Of a DNA stretch of 64,000 nucleotides, positions 4,769 through 61,416 are shown piece by piece. The stretch is from Halorubrum sp. Hd13 (GTDB lineage Archaea; Halobacteriota; Halobacteria; Halobacteriales; Haloferacaceae): NCBI RefSeq assembly GCF_002252755.1, contig NZ_NHOY01000110.1:1-64000 (forward strand), given 5' to 3'. Position 1 is the stretch's first letter; the number at the start of each line of letters is the position of its first letter. Made by a program: the position numbers and the translations under genes. The notes beneath the pieces are model-generated. The model had not been told where the DNA came from. It worked only from the letters and a program-made list of their open reading frames with translations, and searched no databases.

Positions 4769-4850
4769 GAAAGGCGTTGCGGTCGATACGCGGAGTACGG
4801 ACCCGGCGATACGGTCGATTGCTTATAAACAGTAACCGCTGGAACGGCAG

Positions 4851-5062
4851 CGAACGCCTCCGAAGCCCCGGCCACTCGGCTAGACGTGGTCGACAACGGA
4901 TCGAAACCGAACGCCTCCAAAGCCCCTTTGAGTCCCGTCCGACCGCACCGTGATACGCCTCACGCCTCCCCAGCCTCGCGGTTCGCGCTCTCCGAGCGCT
5001 CACCGCGTCCCTCGCGGACCCCTCGCGGTCGCCGATGGCGACCGCTCGGCGGCGCGCCGCCG
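4851..5062 (+). repeat. C-box repeat family, copy 1
   Basis: The 482-base gap between thi4 and the eL43 gene holds a non-coding repeat. Two A boxes (4852-4872 and 4909-4926, core 'AACGCCTCC(A/G)AAGCCCC') are followed by 'TTGAGTCCCGTCC' (4928-4940) and then by the conserved 20-mer CTCACGCCTCCCCAGCCTCG (4959-4978). Downstream is a block of hairpins, including a perfect 9-bp stem with a GAT triloop at 5025-5045. The same modules occur at 38222-38630, and the 20-mer again on the minus strand near 60553. Short ORFs that read through it (for example a 64-codon one from 4886) look spurious. Confidence 0.7.
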
Positions 5063-5224
5063 CTTCAGTGTCTCAGTTGACCACCGATGTCAGACTCGCG
5101 AATCGAGCGCCCGCAGCGGGGTCGAAGCGTCGATATCTCCGCATCTCTGGCTCGGTCGGCCCGTCCCCCGCGGCGCCCCCGACTCGTAGCCTTTTTACCC
5201 GCGCTGGCGGTAGACGGACTCACT

Positions 5225-37091: not shown

Positions 37092-38054
37092 TTAAAATCG
37101 CCCGCCGGGACCGCCCGGACCACCGGGACCGCGCGGGCCGCGCACGCCTCCCATGTTCGTCCCGCCGGGACCGCCCGCGGACCGCGCGAGGCTCTCGTTG
37201 CGCTTCCCGAACGCGAGGCCGATCGCGAACCCGATCAGGTGCGCGAGGTGCGCGATGCCGCCGACGCCGCCCGTGCCGCTCTGGATCACGAGCACCGCCG
37301 AAATCAGGGCGATCCCCCACGTGAGGTACTTGATTTTCATCGGGATGACGAAGAAGAGGAGCACCTGCATGTTCGGCCGCCACACGGTGAGCACGCCTAA
37401 GATTGCGAAGCCGGCGCCGCTGGCCCCGAGCACGCCCGTCGTCGGCGCGCCGGTCGCGACCGCGAACAGGACGTGGCCGAGGCCGGCGAGGATCCCCGCG
37501 CCGAAGAAGAACGCCACGAAGCGGCGCGAGCCGACCGCGCGCTCGACGAGCGGGCCGAAGAACAGGATCACGATGCTGTTGCCGATGATGTGGAACAGCT
37601 GGAGTCGGGAGTGCGATAGCACGGACGTCACCCACGTCCAGACGCGGCCGATCGCGTCCGACCGGAGGACGAAGATCTGACTGTGGGCGGCGTCGCCGAG
37701 GGTGAGCGTCACGACCCACTGCGCGAGGAAGGTGATCCACATCGCCGCCAACAGGGCGTACGTGGCGTTGCCCCGAAAGTAGCTCACCAGGCCGCCGGTG
37801 CTCGTCTCGCGGTCGATGCGGCGCTTGACGCGGTCCGCGACGCCCGCGGACTCGCCGCCGGAGGCGCTCGATCCGCCGGCCTCGACGCTCTCGTCGAAGC
37901 CGCTGTCGAACACCCCGCCCGGGTCGTTCCACTCGGAGAGGCCCGGACAGTTGTGGTTCTCCGGCAGACGGTGTTCGGCGCAGAACGTCTGTCCGCACCG
38001 CTTACACTGATACGGGAGGTTCTCGTACTCCCCACACACGTCGCACGTCGCCAT
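37092..38054 (-). CDS. rhomboid protease with AN1-type zinc finger
   Basis: A 320-residue membrane protease. The N terminus is an AN1-like zinc finger, 'CDVCGEYENLPYQCKRCGQ' with 'FCAEHRLPENHNC' (Cys/His ligands 4-36). An acidic linker leads to six or seven membrane helices. Ser212 in 'GVLGASGAGFAILG' and His272 in 'AHLAHLIGFAIG' are the catalytic pair. Rhomboids cut membrane proteins within the bilayer, and the cytoplasmic zinc finger may recruit substrates. The C terminus is Gly/Pro low complexity. Its stop codon abuts the start of nfi. Confidence 0.93.
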   Translation of the reverse strand: MATCDVCGEYENLPYQCKRCGQTFCAEHRLPENHNCPGLSEWNDPGGVFDSGFDESVEAGGSSASGGESAGVADRVKRRIDRETSTGGLVSYFRGNATYALLAAMWITFLAQWVVTLTLGDAAHSQIFVLRSDAIGRVWTWVTSVLSHSRLQLFHIIGNSIVILFFGPLVERAVGSRRFVAFFFGAGILAGLGHVLFAVATGAPTTGVLGASGAGFAILGVLTVWRPNMQVLLFFVIPMKIKYLTWGIALISAVLVIQSGTGGVGGIAHLAHLIGFAIGLAFGKRNESLARSAGGPGGTNMGGVRGPRGPGGPGGPGGRF

Positions 38055-38221
38055 TACCTCTACTTACGGGGGCCTTCCTAAAGCGGTTTGGCTCTCAGAC
38101 GTGGTGGGCGGGAAAACGATTCGTGAGCGGGACGGCTATTTATAAGAACGAGAACGAGTTTTACCCGATAACACCGACCTAGTACCGACTGTTTGTATAT
38201 AAACCGTCGCTGACGCGGTGG

Positions 38222-38630
38222 ACACTTCCAAAGCCCGAGCCGCTCGGCGATACGTCTTCGACGACCCCACACCAAACGCCTCCAAAGCCCCGGCCGCGAG
38301 GACTCGCGTGACTCGCTGTCGTTCGAAAGGCGCGGAGCGCCTTTCGTGATGTCGTCAGAACGCCCTGCGTTCTGACTGCCAGCCGGGAATCTCTGATTTC
38401 CGGCGATGACGAAACGGCTCCGCCGTTTCGAACCACGCGCTTCAGTCGCTCGCGGTGCTCGCTCCTTCCAGTGCTTGCGTCGTCAGGCGTCGTCCTCGCG
38501 ACTGCCCGCTTGAGTCCCGCCCCGCACAGCACCGCACCTCACGCCTCCCCAGCCTCGTCGGTCGCCCATCGCTTCGCTCGGGCGACCGACTCCAGCGAGA
38601 GACCGGAGGTCTCTCTGGCAGCCGGTGGCG
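38222..38630 (+). repeat. C-box repeat family, copy 2 (expanded)
   Basis: The 675-base gap between rhomboid and aroD contains no credible gene. From left it holds A box 1 ('TTCCAAAGCCCGAGCCGCTCGG', 38226 on), A box 2 ('AACGCCTCCAAAGCCCC', 38275-38291), an array of four hairpins (38324-38430), a B box 'TTGAGTCCCG' (38510-38519) and the conserved 20-mer CTCACGCCTCCCCAGCCTCG (38538-38557). Then come a 10-bp hairpin (38558-38589) and CCAG-cg-AGAGACC-GGA-GGTCTCT-CTGG (38592-38618). A and B boxes are adjacent in copy 1 and about 220 bases apart here, because the hairpin array lies between them. Confidence 0.75.
38324..38430 (-). mobile_element. four-hairpin array related to the tnpB 3' flank
   Basis: Four perfect hairpins lie in 107 bases: 38324-38346 (10-bp stem, GGA loop), 38354-38376 (9-bp stem GTCAGAACG, 5-nt loop), 38382-38404 (10-bp stem, TCT loop) and 38410-38430 (9-bp stem, TCC loop). 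On the minus strand the middle two match the two hairpins after the tnpB stop codon (44776-44825) in order, spacing and stems, including 'GCAGTCAGAACG' and 'CGTTCTGACGACA'. I read it as a solo, tnpB-less copy of that flank. Whether it is transcribed as a guide-RNA scaffold is unknown. Confidence 0.65.
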
Positions 38631-38729
38631 ACGCCGCCGGCGACCTCGCGCGTGCGACTCGCGCCCGTCGGGCGCTCGCCGGCACGCGCCGCCGCTGGTT
38701 GGTTTATGAGTGATCTGTTTATGAGTGAT

Positions 38730-39434
38730 CTACCCGTCCACGTCGTCGCCACGCAGTCCGTCGACGAGGCCGCGGAGCGTCGCGAGCGGGTACTGCCCGG
38801 GCGCGGTCGCGTTCGCGGGGTCGACGGGCGCGTAGCCGATCTTCGAGCCGTAGATCGGGGTGACGGCGCGGGTGTGACGGCCGGGCTCGCCCATGCACAT
38901 CGTCGCGACGCGGTGGCCGGCCGCGGTCGCCTCGTGGGTCGCCTCGATCATCGCGAGCGCGTCCCGAGGGGCGGTCGCGGTCGTTGCCAGCTTCCCGACG
39001 TCGCCCTCGTTCGCCGCGTCACCGAGCAGGTCGACGAGCGCGGCCGGCTCCGGCGTCGACTCGAAGTCGTGGACGGAGACGACGACGCTGACCCCCTCCT
39101 GGCGGGCCGTGTCGCGAAGCGCGGTCGCGTGCGACTGCGCTCCCTGGGGCGCGTTCCCGCGGAGTGCCGCGAGCTCGACGTCGACCGCGGCGACCGCGTC
39201 GTCTCCGAGCGCGGTCGAGAGCTCGTCGTACCGTGCCACGTCCTCTGCCTCGCCGCCCTCCCACGACGCGCGGTTCGTGACGAGAAGCGGGAGCTCGCCG
39301 TCGTAGGCATCGAGCTGGACGAGCGGGGCGTCCGCGAGGTCCATCCGGAACTCCACGGCGTCGGCGTGCTCGCGGGCGCGCGGCTCCTCGGAGAGGTCGG
39401 CCGTGCTCGCGGTCAGGACGAACTCTTCGAACAT
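38730..39434 (-). CDS. aroD: 3-dehydroquinate dehydratase, type I
   Basis: A 234-residue enzyme of the shikimate pathway that dehydrates 3-dehydroquinate. His122 in 'VVVSVHDFESTP' and Lys148 in 'GDVGKLATTATAP' (Schiff base) form the type I active site. 'AVEFRMDLAD' and 'SKIGYAPVDPANATAPGQYP' are further family motifs. No other aro gene is next to it. Its stop lies at the edge of the C-box repeat region. Confidence 0.93.
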   Translation of the reverse strand: MFEEFVLTASTADLSEEPRAREHADAVEFRMDLADAPLVQLDAYDGELPLLVTNRASWEGGEAEDVARYDELSTALGDDAVAAVDVELAALRGNAPQGAQSHATALRDTARQEGVSVVVSVHDFESTPEPAALVDLLGDAANEGDVGKLATTATAPRDALAMIEATHEATAAGHRVATMCMGEPGRHTRAVTPIYGSKIGYAPVDPANATAPGQYPLATLRGLVDGLRGDDVDG

Positions 39435-43223: not shown

Positions 43224-43500
43224 GCGAGAGGATAGTCGGCCGCGCGACAAAAGCACTTCGTTCGGGGCAGCGTCAGAATATCCGGTCGTTCGGGCGGCGA
43301 TACGGGAGATACGTATCGCTGGCGACGGCGGTATCGGCGTCGCGGCCGATAAGGATTTTCGAGGTGGAGCCCCCGACCTCAAGGAGCGAACGGAGTGAGC
43401 GAGTAGGTCGGGGAAGAAACCGATATGGTACGACACAACCGCCACACTGCGACCGACCGATTCCCGTGTCCATAAGTACCGTCGGGTACCCTCTGAAAAC

Positions 43501-44745
43501 ATGGATGTGCGTCGAACCGCCGTCGTGAAACTCGCCGTTTCCGACGAGCAACGCGACGCACTCCACCGAACCGCCGAGCAATACCTGTACTGCGCGAACC
43601 GAACCGCCGACTACTGTTGGTCCGACACCTCCTACACCGAGTGTAAGACCAACAAGCGAGAGGTTCGTGACGCGCTCTATTCCGAACTTCGAGAGGAGAC
43701 AGACCTACAGGCCCAACTTGTCCAAGCCGCTATCAAACGCGCTGTCGAAGCGGTCAAAGCGTGTGTCGAACGGTGGAAAAAGGGACAGCGCGTCTCTCAA
43801 CCGACGTTCACCGCCGAAACGATGGACTACGACATCCGGAGCGCAACCTTCTACCGGAACAAGGTGTCGCTGGCAACTGTTGAGGGCCGAGTCGAACCGT
43901 CGTTTGTTCTCCCGGCAGACAGTCCGACGCCCTACGAGCGGTACGTACTCTCCGAGAACTACGAGTTCCGCGAGAGTACGCTTCGGTACGACACGGCCAC
44001 TGACGAGTTCTATCTCAACATTTCGATGCGACGGACAGACGGTGATGGGGTTTCGGAAGATACCGGGCACTCCGACCAAACGGTCCTCGGTATCGACCTC
44101 GGCGTCAATAGCCTCGCCGTGTCCTCAACCGGCACGTTTTGGCAGGGGGACGACTACGACCACTGGTGTCGTGAGTTCGAGAAGCGACGTGGCGAGATGC
44201 AACGGCGCGGCACGCAGGCCGCACACAAGGCCCTGCTTCGCCTCGGGAAGCGTGAAGAAGCCTGGCGCAAACAGTATATCCACACGATCGCCAACGAACT
44301 CGTCTCGGAAGCCGTCGAACACGACTGCGACGTGATCGCGTTCGAAGACTTGAGCGACATTCGAGAACGACTTCCACAGGCAGAGTGGCACCACGTCTGG
44401 GCGTTCCGACGCTTGTTTGAGTACGTCTCCTACAAAGCCCCTAAACAGAGTGTCTCCGTGGAACAGGTCGAGCCGAGCCACACATCCCAACGCTGTTCTC
44501 GGACGGACTGTGGGTTCACGCACGAGAATAACCGCCATGGAGAACAGTTTGAATGCCAGAAGTGTGGGTATGAGGTGAACGCGGATTACAACGGCGCAAA
44601 GAATATCGGGCTACGGCACGCTCGAAAGCGGACACACAGACTCCGTTCCTCGCCCAAGTCGGGGAGCGGAGACGCACAAGTAGACGTGCGTGTGAATGGT
44701 GGGACGTTGAACGGTGAGAGTCACCAGCCTATTGCTGGCGACTGA
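43501..44745 (+). CDS. tnpB: TnpB RNA-guided endonuclease (IS1341-type 'transposase')
   Basis: A 414-residue, apparently intact TnpB, an RNA-guided DNA nuclease and the ancestor type of Cas12. The split RuvC site is complete: Asp199 ('VLGIDLGVNS'), Glu282 ('IAFEDLSDI') and Asp362 ('NADYNGAKNIG'). The zinc ribbon has C332-x4-C337 and C352-x2-C355. The N terminus (about 1-190) is the RNA/DNA-recognition part. Codon use is less GC-biased than in neighbours (more A/T at third positions), a sign of transfer. It lies between a regulator gene and SPFH without breaking either. Its guide RNA would come from its 3' end and flank. Confidence 0.95.
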   Translation: MDVRRTAVVKLAVSDEQRDALHRTAEQYLYCANRTADYCWSDTSYTECKTNKREVRDALYSELREETDLQAQLVQAAIKRAVEAVKACVERWKKGQRVSQPTFTAETMDYDIRSATFYRNKVSLATVEGRVEPSFVLPADSPTPYERYVLSENYEFRESTLRYDTATDEFYLNISMRRTDGDGVSEDTGHSDQTVLGIDLGVNSLAVSSTGTFWQGDDYDHWCREFEKRRGEMQRRGTQAAHKALLRLGKREEAWRKQYIHTIANELVSEAVEHDCDVIAFEDLSDIRERLPQAEWHHVWAFRRLFEYVSYKAPKQSVSVEQVEPSHTSQRCSRTDCGFTHENNRHGEQFECQKCGYEVNADYNGAKNIGLRHARKRTHRLRSSPKSGSGDAQVDVRVNGGTLNGESHQPIAGD

Positions 44746-44775: not shown

Positions 44776-44873
44776 CCAGAAATCTCTGATTTCTGGTTAG
44801 CAGTCAGAACGCGGCACGTTCTGACGACACCCTCAAGGACCGAGGCGCGGAGCGCCGAGGGAGTAGGGTGGGG
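44776..44873 (+). ncRNA. probable omega-RNA 3' part / right-end hairpins of the tnpB element
   Basis: Three hairpins follow the tnpB stop codon: CCAGAAATC-TCT-GATTTCTGG (44776-44796), GTCAGAACG-CGGCA-CGTTCTGAC (44803-44825) and the right-end hairpin (44828-44870). TnpB guide RNAs are known to span the tnpB 3' end and the right end, with the guide being the flanking DNA. Sense RNAs overlapping tnpB 3' ends are reported in Halobacterium. The guide here would be antisense to the 3' end of the SPFH gene. The 5' end of the RNA lies somewhere in the last part of tnpB and cannot be fixed from sequence. Confidence 0.55.
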
Positions 44874-44877
44874 TAGT

Positions 44878-57196: not shown

Positions 57197-57552
57197 GTGA
57201 CGTTCCTACGCGGCCGGTGACCGACGACCCACCTAAATCCTCCTTTCTCACGCCGCGTGCCAGACGGTCGGTCGATTCCGTCCCGGACGCGTCGCGGTCC
57301 ACAAGAACACGCTTAAGAACCCCGACGGCGAGGTCATGGATGGGAACAGCACAGCTGCAGATCCGACGCGCCGGGGCCTCTTCGCCCGCGGCTTGGGAAT
57401 GTAGCAGTGCACCGACGCCTCCGGCGTCGCGGCTCGGGCCGGTCCGCTCGCGCGGATCGGGCCGCGGGACCGCTCGCTCGATGCGAGCCCTCGACAGCCG
57501 CGCCGCGCGGAGCCGCGGTCACGTTGTGGTTGTGCCGTTCCAATTTCAGACA
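57197..57552 (+). other. long, hairpin-rich leader region of the S15 gene
   Basis: A 356-base gap between the divergent nhaC and rps15. A TATA-like 'GCTTAAGAA' (about 57310-57318) would start a rightward transcript near 57335 and give a leader of about 215 bases. Within it are CGACGCC-TCC-GGCGTCG (57413-57429), GC-rich pairs at 57437-57475 and several shorter stems. No gene or tRNA is recognised here. A second, closer promoter cannot be excluded. Confidence 0.4.
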
Positions 57553-59699: not shown

Positions 59700-60343
59700 G
59701 CGAACGATCCGTATCCAAGAGCAGAGAACAGAAGCGCTGGTACACCGTGCTGGCGCCCGAACAGTTCGACCGGCAGGAGCTCGGCGAGACCCTCGCCGAG
59801 GAGCCCGACCAGGTCGTCGGCCGCACGATCACGACGACGCTCGGCGAGCTCACCGGCGACTCCGGCGCGAACAACACCAAGCTGACGTTCAAGATCACCG
59901 ACGTCGGCAGCGACACGGCGTACACCGAGTTCATCACCTACGAGCTCACGCGGGACTACCTGCGCTCGCTCGTCCGCCGCGGCGCCTCCAAGGTCGAGGC
60001 GTCGATCACGGTGCTGACGACGGACGACTACCGCATCCGCGTCCAGCCCGTGGCGCTGACGACCAAGAAGGCCGACCGCTCCCAGGAGAAGGCGATCCGC
60101 CGCGTCATGATCGACAAGGTCCACGCGGCCGCCGAGGAGCGCACCTTCGTGGAGTTCGTCGACGCCATCGTCGAGGGGAACCTCTCCTCGGCCATCTACG
60201 GCGAGGCGAAGCTGATCTACCCGCTGCGCCGCGTCGAGGTCCAGAAGCTGACGCTGGAGGCGCGGCCGCGCGAGGTCGCCGCCGAGGAGGAGGCCGCCGT
60301 CGACGTCGACGCCGACGAAGTGGCGGTCGACGCCGACGAGTAA
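59696..60343 (+). CDS. rps3ae: 30S ribosomal protein eS1 (S3ae)
   Basis: A 215-residue small-subunit protein: 'MSERSVSKSREQKRWYTVLAP', 'VVGRTITTTLGELTGDS', 'RRGASKVEASITVLTTDDYRIRVQPVALTTKKADRSQEKAIRRVM' and 'KLIYPLRRVEVQKL' are diagnostic. The acidic tail 'VDVDADEVAVDADE' is haloarchaeal. Its start overlaps the pcc2 stop (ATGA). It is the last gene of the uS15 run; the following 317 bases hold the third C-box repeat. Confidence 0.96.
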   Translation: MSERSVSKSREQKRWYTVLAPEQFDRQELGETLAEEPDQVVGRTITTTLGELTGDSGANNTKLTFKITDVGSDTAYTEFITYELTRDYLRSLVRRGASKVEASITVLTTDDYRIRVQPVALTTKKADRSQEKAIRRVMIDKVHAAAEERTFVEFVDAIVEGNLSSAIYGEAKLIYPLRRVEVQKLTLEARPREVAAEEEAAVDVDADEVAVDADE

Positions 60344-60458
60344 CGCCCCGTCAGACGACCCCGTGCGACTTTTCCGTTTATAAATCGCCTAGCCGCGGCG
60401 CCGGCGCGCGACGGACGGCGCGTTGTGCCACGGCCCTACGTATAGAAGAGCCGCGGTG

Positions 60459-60573
60459 GCGCGTGCCTCCGAGTGGCCGACAGGCCACGAGGAGCACGCG
60501 CGAGGGACGCCGTGAGCGACGTGGGCGACCGGCGGGAGCCCGGAGCGAGCGGCGAGGCTGGGGAGGCGTGAGG
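60459..60573 (-). repeat. C-box repeat family, copy 3
   Basis: In the convergent gap between eS1 and the GNAT gene (60344-60660) the minus strand has 'CGACCGCACCG' (60578-60588) and three bases later the 20-mer CTCACGCCTCCCCAGCCTCG (60553-60572), the same order as in copy 1. Beyond it lies a long hairpin (60459-60501): GCGCGTGC and GTGGCC arms around a GACA loop. No A box is visible. No gene is supported in this gap. Confidence 0.7.
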
Positions 60574-60660
60574 TCGCGGTGCGGTCGCAACGAGAGCTTC
60601 GGAGGAGGTCATCGTAGAGTCAGCACCGAACCCACCGAGCGAAGCTTCACGAGCAACCGC

Positions 60661-61257
60661 TCACTCCACGGGACGCGTCAGCCGCTCGCGGTACGCCTCG
60701 AACCCCTGTTTCTCGTAGAACGCCAGCGCCCGCTCGTTGTCGGCGTCGACGTCGAGCCGGAGCTCCTCGCAGTCCCGCTCTCGGGCGTCGATCGCCGCGC
60801 GCTCCATCAGTCGGTCGGCGAGCCCGGTGCCGCGGAACGCCGCCGAGACGTAGAGGTCCCCGACGACGAGCCGGTCGGGGCGGTCGAACACGACGGGACA
60901 GGCGTCGACGCCGGTCGAGACGAACGCGACGAGGTCGCGGTCCGGGCCGGGGACGCCCGGAGCCGCGGGGGCCGCGGGATCGAGCGCCCCTGGCCCCTCG
61001 GAATCGAGCGCCGCGGCGTCGACCGGCTCGTCCGATCCGCCGGCGGCGGCGACCGAGACCACCCAGAGCCGGTAGTCGTCCTCGCGGAGTCGATCGAGCC
61101 GGAAGTCGGTCTCCTCGGCGATCAGCTCCCCCTCGGGCCGGTCGGCGAGGGCGTGCCCGTCGACGCGCTCGGCGAGGTCGCGGTGATACGGGAGCCACAG
61201 CTCGGCGACGTACCGCGCCGCGGCGGCCCGGGTGGCCGACAGTCGTCGGAGTCGCAT
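60661..61257 (-). CDS. GNAT family N-acetyltransferase
   Basis: A 198-residue acyltransferase. '[31 protein letters not shown]' contains the acetyl-CoA motif (R-x-x-G-x-G/A) and '[27 protein letters not shown]' the closing strand and helix. A Pro/Ala-rich insert (about 75-105) is unusual. The substrate is unknown. The ATG at 61257 is used, because the longer frame would read through a 22-bp tandem repeat. Confidence 0.88.
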
Positions 61258-61306: not shown

Positions 61307-61416
61307 CGCGTTCGGGGCGTGTTCGGGTCGCGTTCGGGGCGTGTTCGGGTCGCGTTGGAGGCGTGTTCGGGTCTCGGCCGGGGCGCGTTCGAGTCGCGTT
61401 GGAGGCGCGTGCGAGT
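61307..61416. repeat. 22-bp tandem repeat, five units
   Basis: Five 22-base units at 61307, 61329, 61351, 61373 and 61395 follow CGCGTT(C/G)G(G/A)GGCGTGTTCGGGT. The first two are identical and the others progressively diverge. They lie between the divergent starts of the GNAT gene and rpoL, the only one of the eight tandem repeats placed 5' of genes. They could space or overlap promoter elements of both. Confidence 0.9.

Follow-up and report, generated by a model that had tools for sequence, protein, structure and literature searches.

The window analysed here, a 64-kb stretch of the genome of Halorubrum sp. Hd13, contains exactly three occurrences of the 20-mer CTCACGCCTCCCCAGCCTCG: at 4959 and 38538 on the plus strand and at 60553 on the minus strand. 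All three match the original prediction letter for letter; dinucleotide shuffles of the window yield 0.03 matches even when three mismatches are allowed. Each 20-mer had also been described as lying next to a GCACC-containing box and ahead of perfect hairpins. The order (GCACC-type box, 20-mer, hairpins) holds in three of three cases; the hairpins themselves are not simply perfect, as GA/GA mismatches interrupt them on the opposite strand. Copies 1 and 2 do share the A and B boxes attributed to them, namely two A boxes (ACxCCTCCAAAGCCCC type) and a B box (TTTGAGTCC; CTTGAGTCC in copy 2), and neither kind of box is recognisable in copy 3.

The most complete copy, copy 2, is flanked by a rhomboid-family gene (37092-38054) and by a gene for an aroD-type enzyme (38730-39434, assigned by sequence), both on the minus strand. 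The interval first proposed for it, 38222-38630, does fall on the element but truncates it: the real span is about 38196 to 38709. Its parts, and the extents of the other two copies, are given below; R1 is a covariance model made from 69 thinned copies, and “hp” stands for a hairpin.

38196-38709, minus (the structured, G-rich strand): copy 2, full-length element; R1 match at 38395-38557 (minus), 86 bits
38196-38203: TATA-like box (TATATAA, by sequence) bordering the A units on the left
38224-38241, plus: A box 1, ACTTCCAAAGCCCGAGCC
38278-38295, plus: A box 2, GCCTCCAAAGCCCCGGCC, 54 bases past box 1; the S0 stem begins at its end
38291-38505, minus: S0, a long hairpin; its stem varies and covaries, and further in lies a ladder whose 2-bp steps are split by GA/GA mismatches
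38317-38436, within S0: inserted multi-hairpin module, GTCGTTCGA-hp-TCGTGATG-hp-...-hp-CGAACCACG
38505-38517, plus: B box, CCCGCTTGAGTCC, usually CCCCTTTGAGTCC; on the opposite strand, its AAAG pairs with the CUUU from the A box
38524-38537, plus: linker box, GCACAGCACCGCAC
38538-38557, plus: the 20-mer; the opposite strand reads CGAGGCUGGGGAGGCGUGAG
38558-38589, minus: hairpin P1; letters vary among copies and orthologues, pairing is kept
38594-38644, plus: inserted double-hairpin module, AGC-hp-TGGCAG-hp-CGAC
38648-38689, minus: hairpin P2, with outer helix GCGCGUGC / GCACGCGC, a GA/GA tandem mismatch and an inner stem
38703-38709: TATA-like box 6-8 bp beyond the right end, TTTATGA here vs. 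TTTATAAATA in most copies
4823-5064, minus: copy 1, with TATA-like box, two A boxes, B box, 20-mer (4959-4978), P1 and P2; S0 deleted
60452-60607, plus (the structured strand): copy 3, with the 20-mer on minus (60553-60572), P1 and P2

Copy 2 is thus the full-length element plus inserted hairpin modules, which enlarge its S0. S0 is missing from the other two window copies. In copy 1, which lies upstream of the L37Ae gene, the A and B boxes are joined directly at CCCC, and R1 matches 4912-4978 (minus) with 56.5 bits and without the S0 interior. Copy 3 comprises only the right half of the element (R1 match 60553-60607, plus, 35.9 bits) and sits between two convergent genes, S3Ae (59747-60343, plus) and GNAT (60661-61257, minus). 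The surrounding DNA also holds an S15-Halobacteria ribosomal leader (RF03143; 57340-57410, 71 bits) and a tRNA-Pro(CGG) gene (61308-61408) whose length, 101 bases, suggests an intron.

A pile-up of 66 copies from the Halorubrum sp. Hd13 genome defined the layout of the element, given here from left to right on the strand of the 20-mer. The left part is made up of A units, one to four in tandem, each about 57 bases long (TTATAAAT - spacer - GAACACCTCCAAAGCCCCAGCC). S0 extends from within the final A box to GGCTGCCCCTTTGAGTCCC, the B box, which is followed by the GCACCGCAACCGCAC linker, the 20-mer, the variable hairpin P1, CTCCCTCGCGCGTGC, the hairpin P2, and GCACGCGCCACCGC; in most copies, the TATA-like TTTATAAATA lies 6-8 bases past GCACGCGCCACCGC. 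Some copies contain inserted multi-hairpin modules. The whole is a modular element of some 0.4-0.5 kb with three hairpin domains, in which the 20-mer is the best-conserved box. Boxes resembling TTTATAAAT flank both ends; being self-palindromic and part of repeated units, they are indistinguishable from target-site duplications. At one locus (L041:1863-2029), the inner S0 is reversed between intact stem arms, a natural inversion.

How widespread is the element? The original prediction had supposed many copies genome-wide, and the Halorubrum sp. Hd13 assembly (3.81 Mb, 130 contigs) bears this out: the 20-mer occurs 40 times exactly and 68 times with up to two mismatches, while the reversed 20-mer, used as a control, gave one match. 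Counted as elements, there are 66-73 copies (73 by R1 at E ≤ 1e-4). Every Halorubrum genome searched (53 of 53) carries the 20-mer, in 8 to 182 copies at ≤1 mismatch, and the richest reaches 194 copies at ≤2 mismatches. With copies throughout genome and genus, a local duplication confined to the window was dismissed. An exact scan of named genomes found the 20-mer mainly in Halorubrum, and also in Haloparvum, Halorussus, and a few uncultured haloarchaea. The family is not limited to the genus: R1 at E ≤ 0.001 detected it across the order, in 68 of 87 genera (218 of 293 genomes); across the phylum beyond the order, the same model found one genome with a weak match. At E ≤ 1e-4, one genome (G022) holds at least 150 copies, and four others hold 79, 71, 13, and 38. 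Outside Halorubrum, many matches are confined to the S0 domain; S0 is thus the most widespread part. In a genome of another family (G205; e.g., C4:27248-27456 and C1:537262-537421), the 20-mers form inverted pairs about 140-190 bases apart, an arrangement unlike that of Halorubrum.

These copies lie between genes. None of 204 scored copies (57-58 in Halorubrum sp. Hd13, 147 in other genomes) falls inside a gene, and 22 of the 58 in Halorubrum sp. Hd13 lie between convergent genes, compared to 25 of 143 gene pairs in a sample of about 164 kb of that genome (Fisher p = 0.003). Beside co-directional genes, the two orientations number 14 vs. 11-12 in Halorubrum sp. Hd13 and 38 vs. 26 in the set from other genomes. 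The lack of an orientation preference in Halorubrum sp. Hd13 speaks against an mRNA leader or tail, and that explanation was dismissed.

Does the element encode a protein? One regularity speaks for it: of 133 spacings between tandem A boxes in all fetched loci, 127 are multiples of three (57, 54, 51, 48, 66, 69, 75, and 21 bases). Nothing else in the element keeps a frame, however. S0, the linker, P1, and P2 have lengths that fall into each of the three frames, which argues that the element is not coding and leaves no sign of protein-level selection on a reading frame across the copies. The gene finder called no gene across any of the 204 scored copies, and in our reading the A-box variants would be mostly non-synonymous on the open minus frame. 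We therefore dismissed a protein-coding region, to which we assign next to no probability, and the earlier description of the repeat as non-coding stands.

We examined which strand carries the information. The informative strand is the opposite, G-rich one, and the 20-mer is just one of the boxes in a larger fold. In 69 of 69 S0 domains (mean -80.3 vs. -61.4 kcal/mol) and in 134 of 137 right domains, the G-rich strand folds better, as judged by folding energies that inherently favour G-rich strands and GA/GA loops. Stems are more than 95% Watson-Crick at the best-aligned positions. Where a mismatch is one-sided, A-C is commoner than G-T on the 20-mer strand, which corresponds to G-U on the opposite strand: our pair-table tally, with the near-invariant pair 2-17 left out, gives about 70 G-U vs. 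19 A-C cells, and the ratio is about 2 to 1 over the core stem columns of 229 copies. The linkers outside the stems are the best-conserved parts of the element. Its conserved G runs are GGCUGGGGAGG (68/69 copies), AAAGGGGC (54/69), GGGGCUU (68/69), and GGYGGGA (52/69), and GGCTGGGGAGG, within the strand opposite the 20-mer, is present in 68 of 69 aligned copies.

The hairpins have a recurrent internal architecture. On the G-rich strand, P2 takes forms such as TCC-GA-GTGG...CCAC-GA-GGA, GGT-GA...GA-ACC, and CGT-GA...GA-ACG, with GA/GA steps set between pairs that vary. The S0 tip, NN-GA-NN-GNA-NN-GA-NN, is fully paired in 91 of 191 copies and occurs in 16 sequence variants. When 149 right domains were folded, GA/GA accounted for 208 of 238 two-by-two loops; folding energies favour such loops, but their positions had first been spotted by eye in conserved sequence. 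GAA, GGA, and GCA, all of the GNA type, are the commonest triloops in these domains. The opposite strand would show UC/UC.

Covariation was assessed on the 69 thinned copies over 31 consensus pairs, with shuffled and slid registers as controls. Pairs were formed in 96.3% of cells (83.4% when shuffled), two-sided changes occurred at 23 of the 31 pairs, and the covariation score was 0.366, vs. 0.142 for shuffled and 0.03-0.06 for slid registers. The covariation that the original prediction had left to be checked is thus strong, and it recurs outside Halorubrum. In 39 R1 matches from fetched loci of other genera, 26 of 31 pairs changed on both sides and the score was 0.412 (0.114 shuffled, 0.03-0.05 slid); this alignment was fitted to R1 and leans to the model, and copies related by descent do not count as independent; even so, nearly all the stem letters are different. 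The AAAG/CUUU helix that closes S0 is flanked by C-G in Halorubrum and by G-C in most other genera, with a GCAAAG/CUUUGC form in one. Covariation on one strand above both kinds of control is expected of a structured non-coding RNA and is seen here. Across the order, the stems vary freely in their letters but keep both their pairing and their mismatches.

Could such pairing persist in passive, REP-like palindromes through templated mutation, without selection? The P1 stems, which are nearly perfect and yet wholly different in their letters from copy to copy, are what this process would leave behind. Templated repair of palindromes would keep stems perfect but would also erase GA/GA, and GA/GA is kept while the flanking pairs covary; moreover, the best conservation lies in the linkers, outside the stems. 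Selection on the fold would be the better reading, and we disfavour passive palindromes as very improbable. The element is probably functional, its fold having kept its pairing across most of the order.

Orthologous copies bear on its age. Upstream of L37Ae, about 17 of the 28 species whose flanking sequence sufficed carry the element, with a single orientation throughout; downstream of aroD, 19-20 of 29 species carry it (in the doubtful one, Ns cover the 20-mer), likewise with a single orientation. Position and orientation kept at two loci indicate that the element is old. The stems of these orthologous copies have diverged widely and are still complementary, and no two copies in the Halorubrum sp. 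Hd13 genome are 90% alike over 200 bases. The copies are thus old, with pairing kept copy by copy, and the absence of near-identical copies led us to dismiss a recent expansion. Several species have short, empty spacers from which the whole region from the A units to the TATA-like box is absent. These empty orthologous sites lie between species, with flanks too diverged to place the exact junction, and no fresh insertion was seen.

The window also contains an IS605-type element. Its TnpB gene (43501-44745; Pfam OrfB_IS605 and Cas12f1-like_TNB) lies between ends at about 43375-43412 (left) and 44832-44876, and its left-end hairpin, AAGGAGCGAACGGAGTGAGCGA, is letter-for-letter identical to an S0 tip. 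A relative at another locus (L204) keeps this hairpin inside a covarying stem (CCCGACCT/AGGTCGGG vs. CTCCGGCCT/AGGCCGGAG). At L204:5330-5460, the right-end hairpin is split by a double-hairpin module, TCGTTCGA-hp-GTGATGACG-hp-GGACCACG, resembling the insertion of a small mobile repeat into a palindrome; the module is of the same kind as that inserted inside S0 of copy 2. A double hairpin resembling those inserted in the repeat also lies on the 3' side of the window TnpB element. In Haloquadratum, small mobile repeats are described as inserting into palindromes of IS605 elements and of PATEs, the palindrome-associated transposable elements of that genus (PMC3119063). On these sequence likenesses, the element may descend from, or be related to, IS605 ends. 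The matching S0 tip sits in the middle of the element as delimited here, however. A likeness of the A box to an IS605 right end (ACATCAAAGCC) was set aside because it spans few bases and, given the hairpin match, lies on the wrong strand.

Our main rival explanation builds on this kinship: the element would be a non-autonomous IS200/IS605-related element, a heterogeneous PATE, with hairpins that serve as single-stranded DNA substrates for a transposase acting in trans and with copies that are old insertions. The shared left-end hairpin, its covarying relative at L204, and the double-hairpin modules that break both the IS605 right end and the element, like the small mobile repeats of Haloquadratum (PMC3119063), all favour it, as do the highly variable copy number and the existence of empty sites. 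Against it, about 17-20 of 28-29 species retain orthologous copies whose place and orientation are unchanged and whose stems still match, closely similar copies are lacking in Halorubrum sp. Hd13, and the fold is conserved order-wide, unlike simple terminal palindromes. TnpB-like genes occur at only 4 of about 300 fetched loci, for which reason a linkage to TnpB was dismissed; a plasmid or phage element was dismissed as well, with only three weak matches in plasmids and none in phages. On balance, we consider the transposon reading rather unlikely, though the one to be taken most seriously among the alternatives.

The G-rich strand might instead fold as single-stranded DNA at a chromosomal site and bind a replication, repair, or chromosome-organising protein. 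The intergenic, multi-copy, gene-orientation-neutral placement suits such a site, as do its rarity on plasmids and absence from phages, and the AT-rich boxes at both ends would help unwinding. GNA triloops with tandem GA are, moreover, exceptionally stable in DNA. However, along one complete chromosome, copies in either direction are numerous and widely scattered, with no visible link to replication direction, so a replication-strand marker was dismissed, and a protein that binds duplex DNA would not need strand-specific mismatches. We regard a chromosomal DNA site as improbable.

The reading that we prefer, at a probability of roughly one half, is that each copy encodes, opposite the 20-mer, a large structured folded strand, most likely a stand-alone non-coding RNA of about 300 nt. 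The data point to a strand-specific folded single strand, probably RNA; RNA is the simplest form, and the tolerance of wobble pairs fits it, though single-stranded DNA is possible. From its TATA-like end, the G-rich strand folds through P2, P1, the conserved G-rich linker (the 20-mer complement, GUGCGG-type repeats, and GGUGGGACUCAAAG), and the long S0. At the foot of S0, AAAG pairs with CUUU; the upper part is a ladder of 2-bp steps split by GA/GA, with a GNA triloop at its top. The strand would be transcribed. Proteins commonly dock at tandem G-A steps, and the fold may be read by a protein as a shape. More speculatively, a quadruplex could form from the four conserved G runs in a cytoplasm rich in potassium. 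The copies would work independently of adjacent genes.

Several observations count against the RNA reading. If the right-hand TATA-like box is a promoter with the usual archaeal TATA-to-start spacing, the transcript would start inside the 5' arm of P2, which would then not be whole. G-U makes up only about 3-4% of pairs, which is low for RNA, and GNA triloops and tandem GA are just as stable when formed by single-stranded DNA. The copy number (8 to about 190 among species) and the empty sites resemble those of mobile elements, and S0 is not kept in all copies. A fuller proposal, that this is a new class of large, high-copy, shape-defined haloarchaeal “GA-ladder” RNA, possibly with a G quadruplex at the multi-molar potassium level of the cytoplasm, which arose from or was spread by IS605-type ends and was then held in place by selection as a cellular RNA, is possible but tentative.

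Is the element already known? The original prediction knew of no named element of this kind, and we found none. At gathering thresholds, Rfam 15 identified only the S15 leader at 57340 in the whole window and no family over the element; a representative full element (L011) had no Rfam 15 match at E ≤ 5 with permissive filters. The 20-mer core and the A box are absent from the literature searched, which covered few subscription papers, so an earlier description elsewhere is possible. Among work on haloarchaeal repeat and RNA families, nothing equivalent was found, and the Haloquadratum PATEs and small mobile repeats are the only close relative. Like PATEs, the element is transposase-free, haloarchaeal, and palindrome-rich, with many heterogeneous copies and interruptions by small hairpin modules (PMC3119063); it carries an IS605-end hairpin tip, and, with no gene called over the scored copies, it shares their being too short for a transposase. 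It differs in its larger size, its conserved linkers between stems, its order-wide covarying fold, and its orthologues kept in place, with no insertion polymorphism shown. The REP and BIME sequences associated with RAYT transposases are likewise dispersed, intergenic, and palindromic (PMC2817692, PMC3733652), and the likeness extends to about 100 copies per genome and to a composite arrangement. A REP, however, is a short single palindrome of 20-40 bp, whereas the element has about 400-500 bp, three hairpin domains with variable stems, and GA-mismatch ladders. IS605 ends share the GC-GA-AC-GNA-GT-GA-GC hairpin in a covarying stem, but an IS605 element has two short terminal hairpins around tnpB, and the element is a multi-domain non-coding unit. 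HEARO-like RNAs of bacteria are large, structured, tied to mobile elements, and present in several copies per genome; the element resembles them in all of these respects by description, but it matches no Rfam 15 family. It belongs with dispersed, structured, intergenic elements, and there is a realistic chance that it is a new RNA class.

For the haloarchaea, which include standard laboratory archaea, these findings describe an apparently unnamed structured element that is present in most genera of the order, at up to about 190 copies per genome, and that links cellular non-coding sequence with the ends of IS605 transposons. Short open frames across such elements are likely not proteins. Based on tandem G-A mismatches, the element offers a testable case of conservation of shape rather than of sequence.
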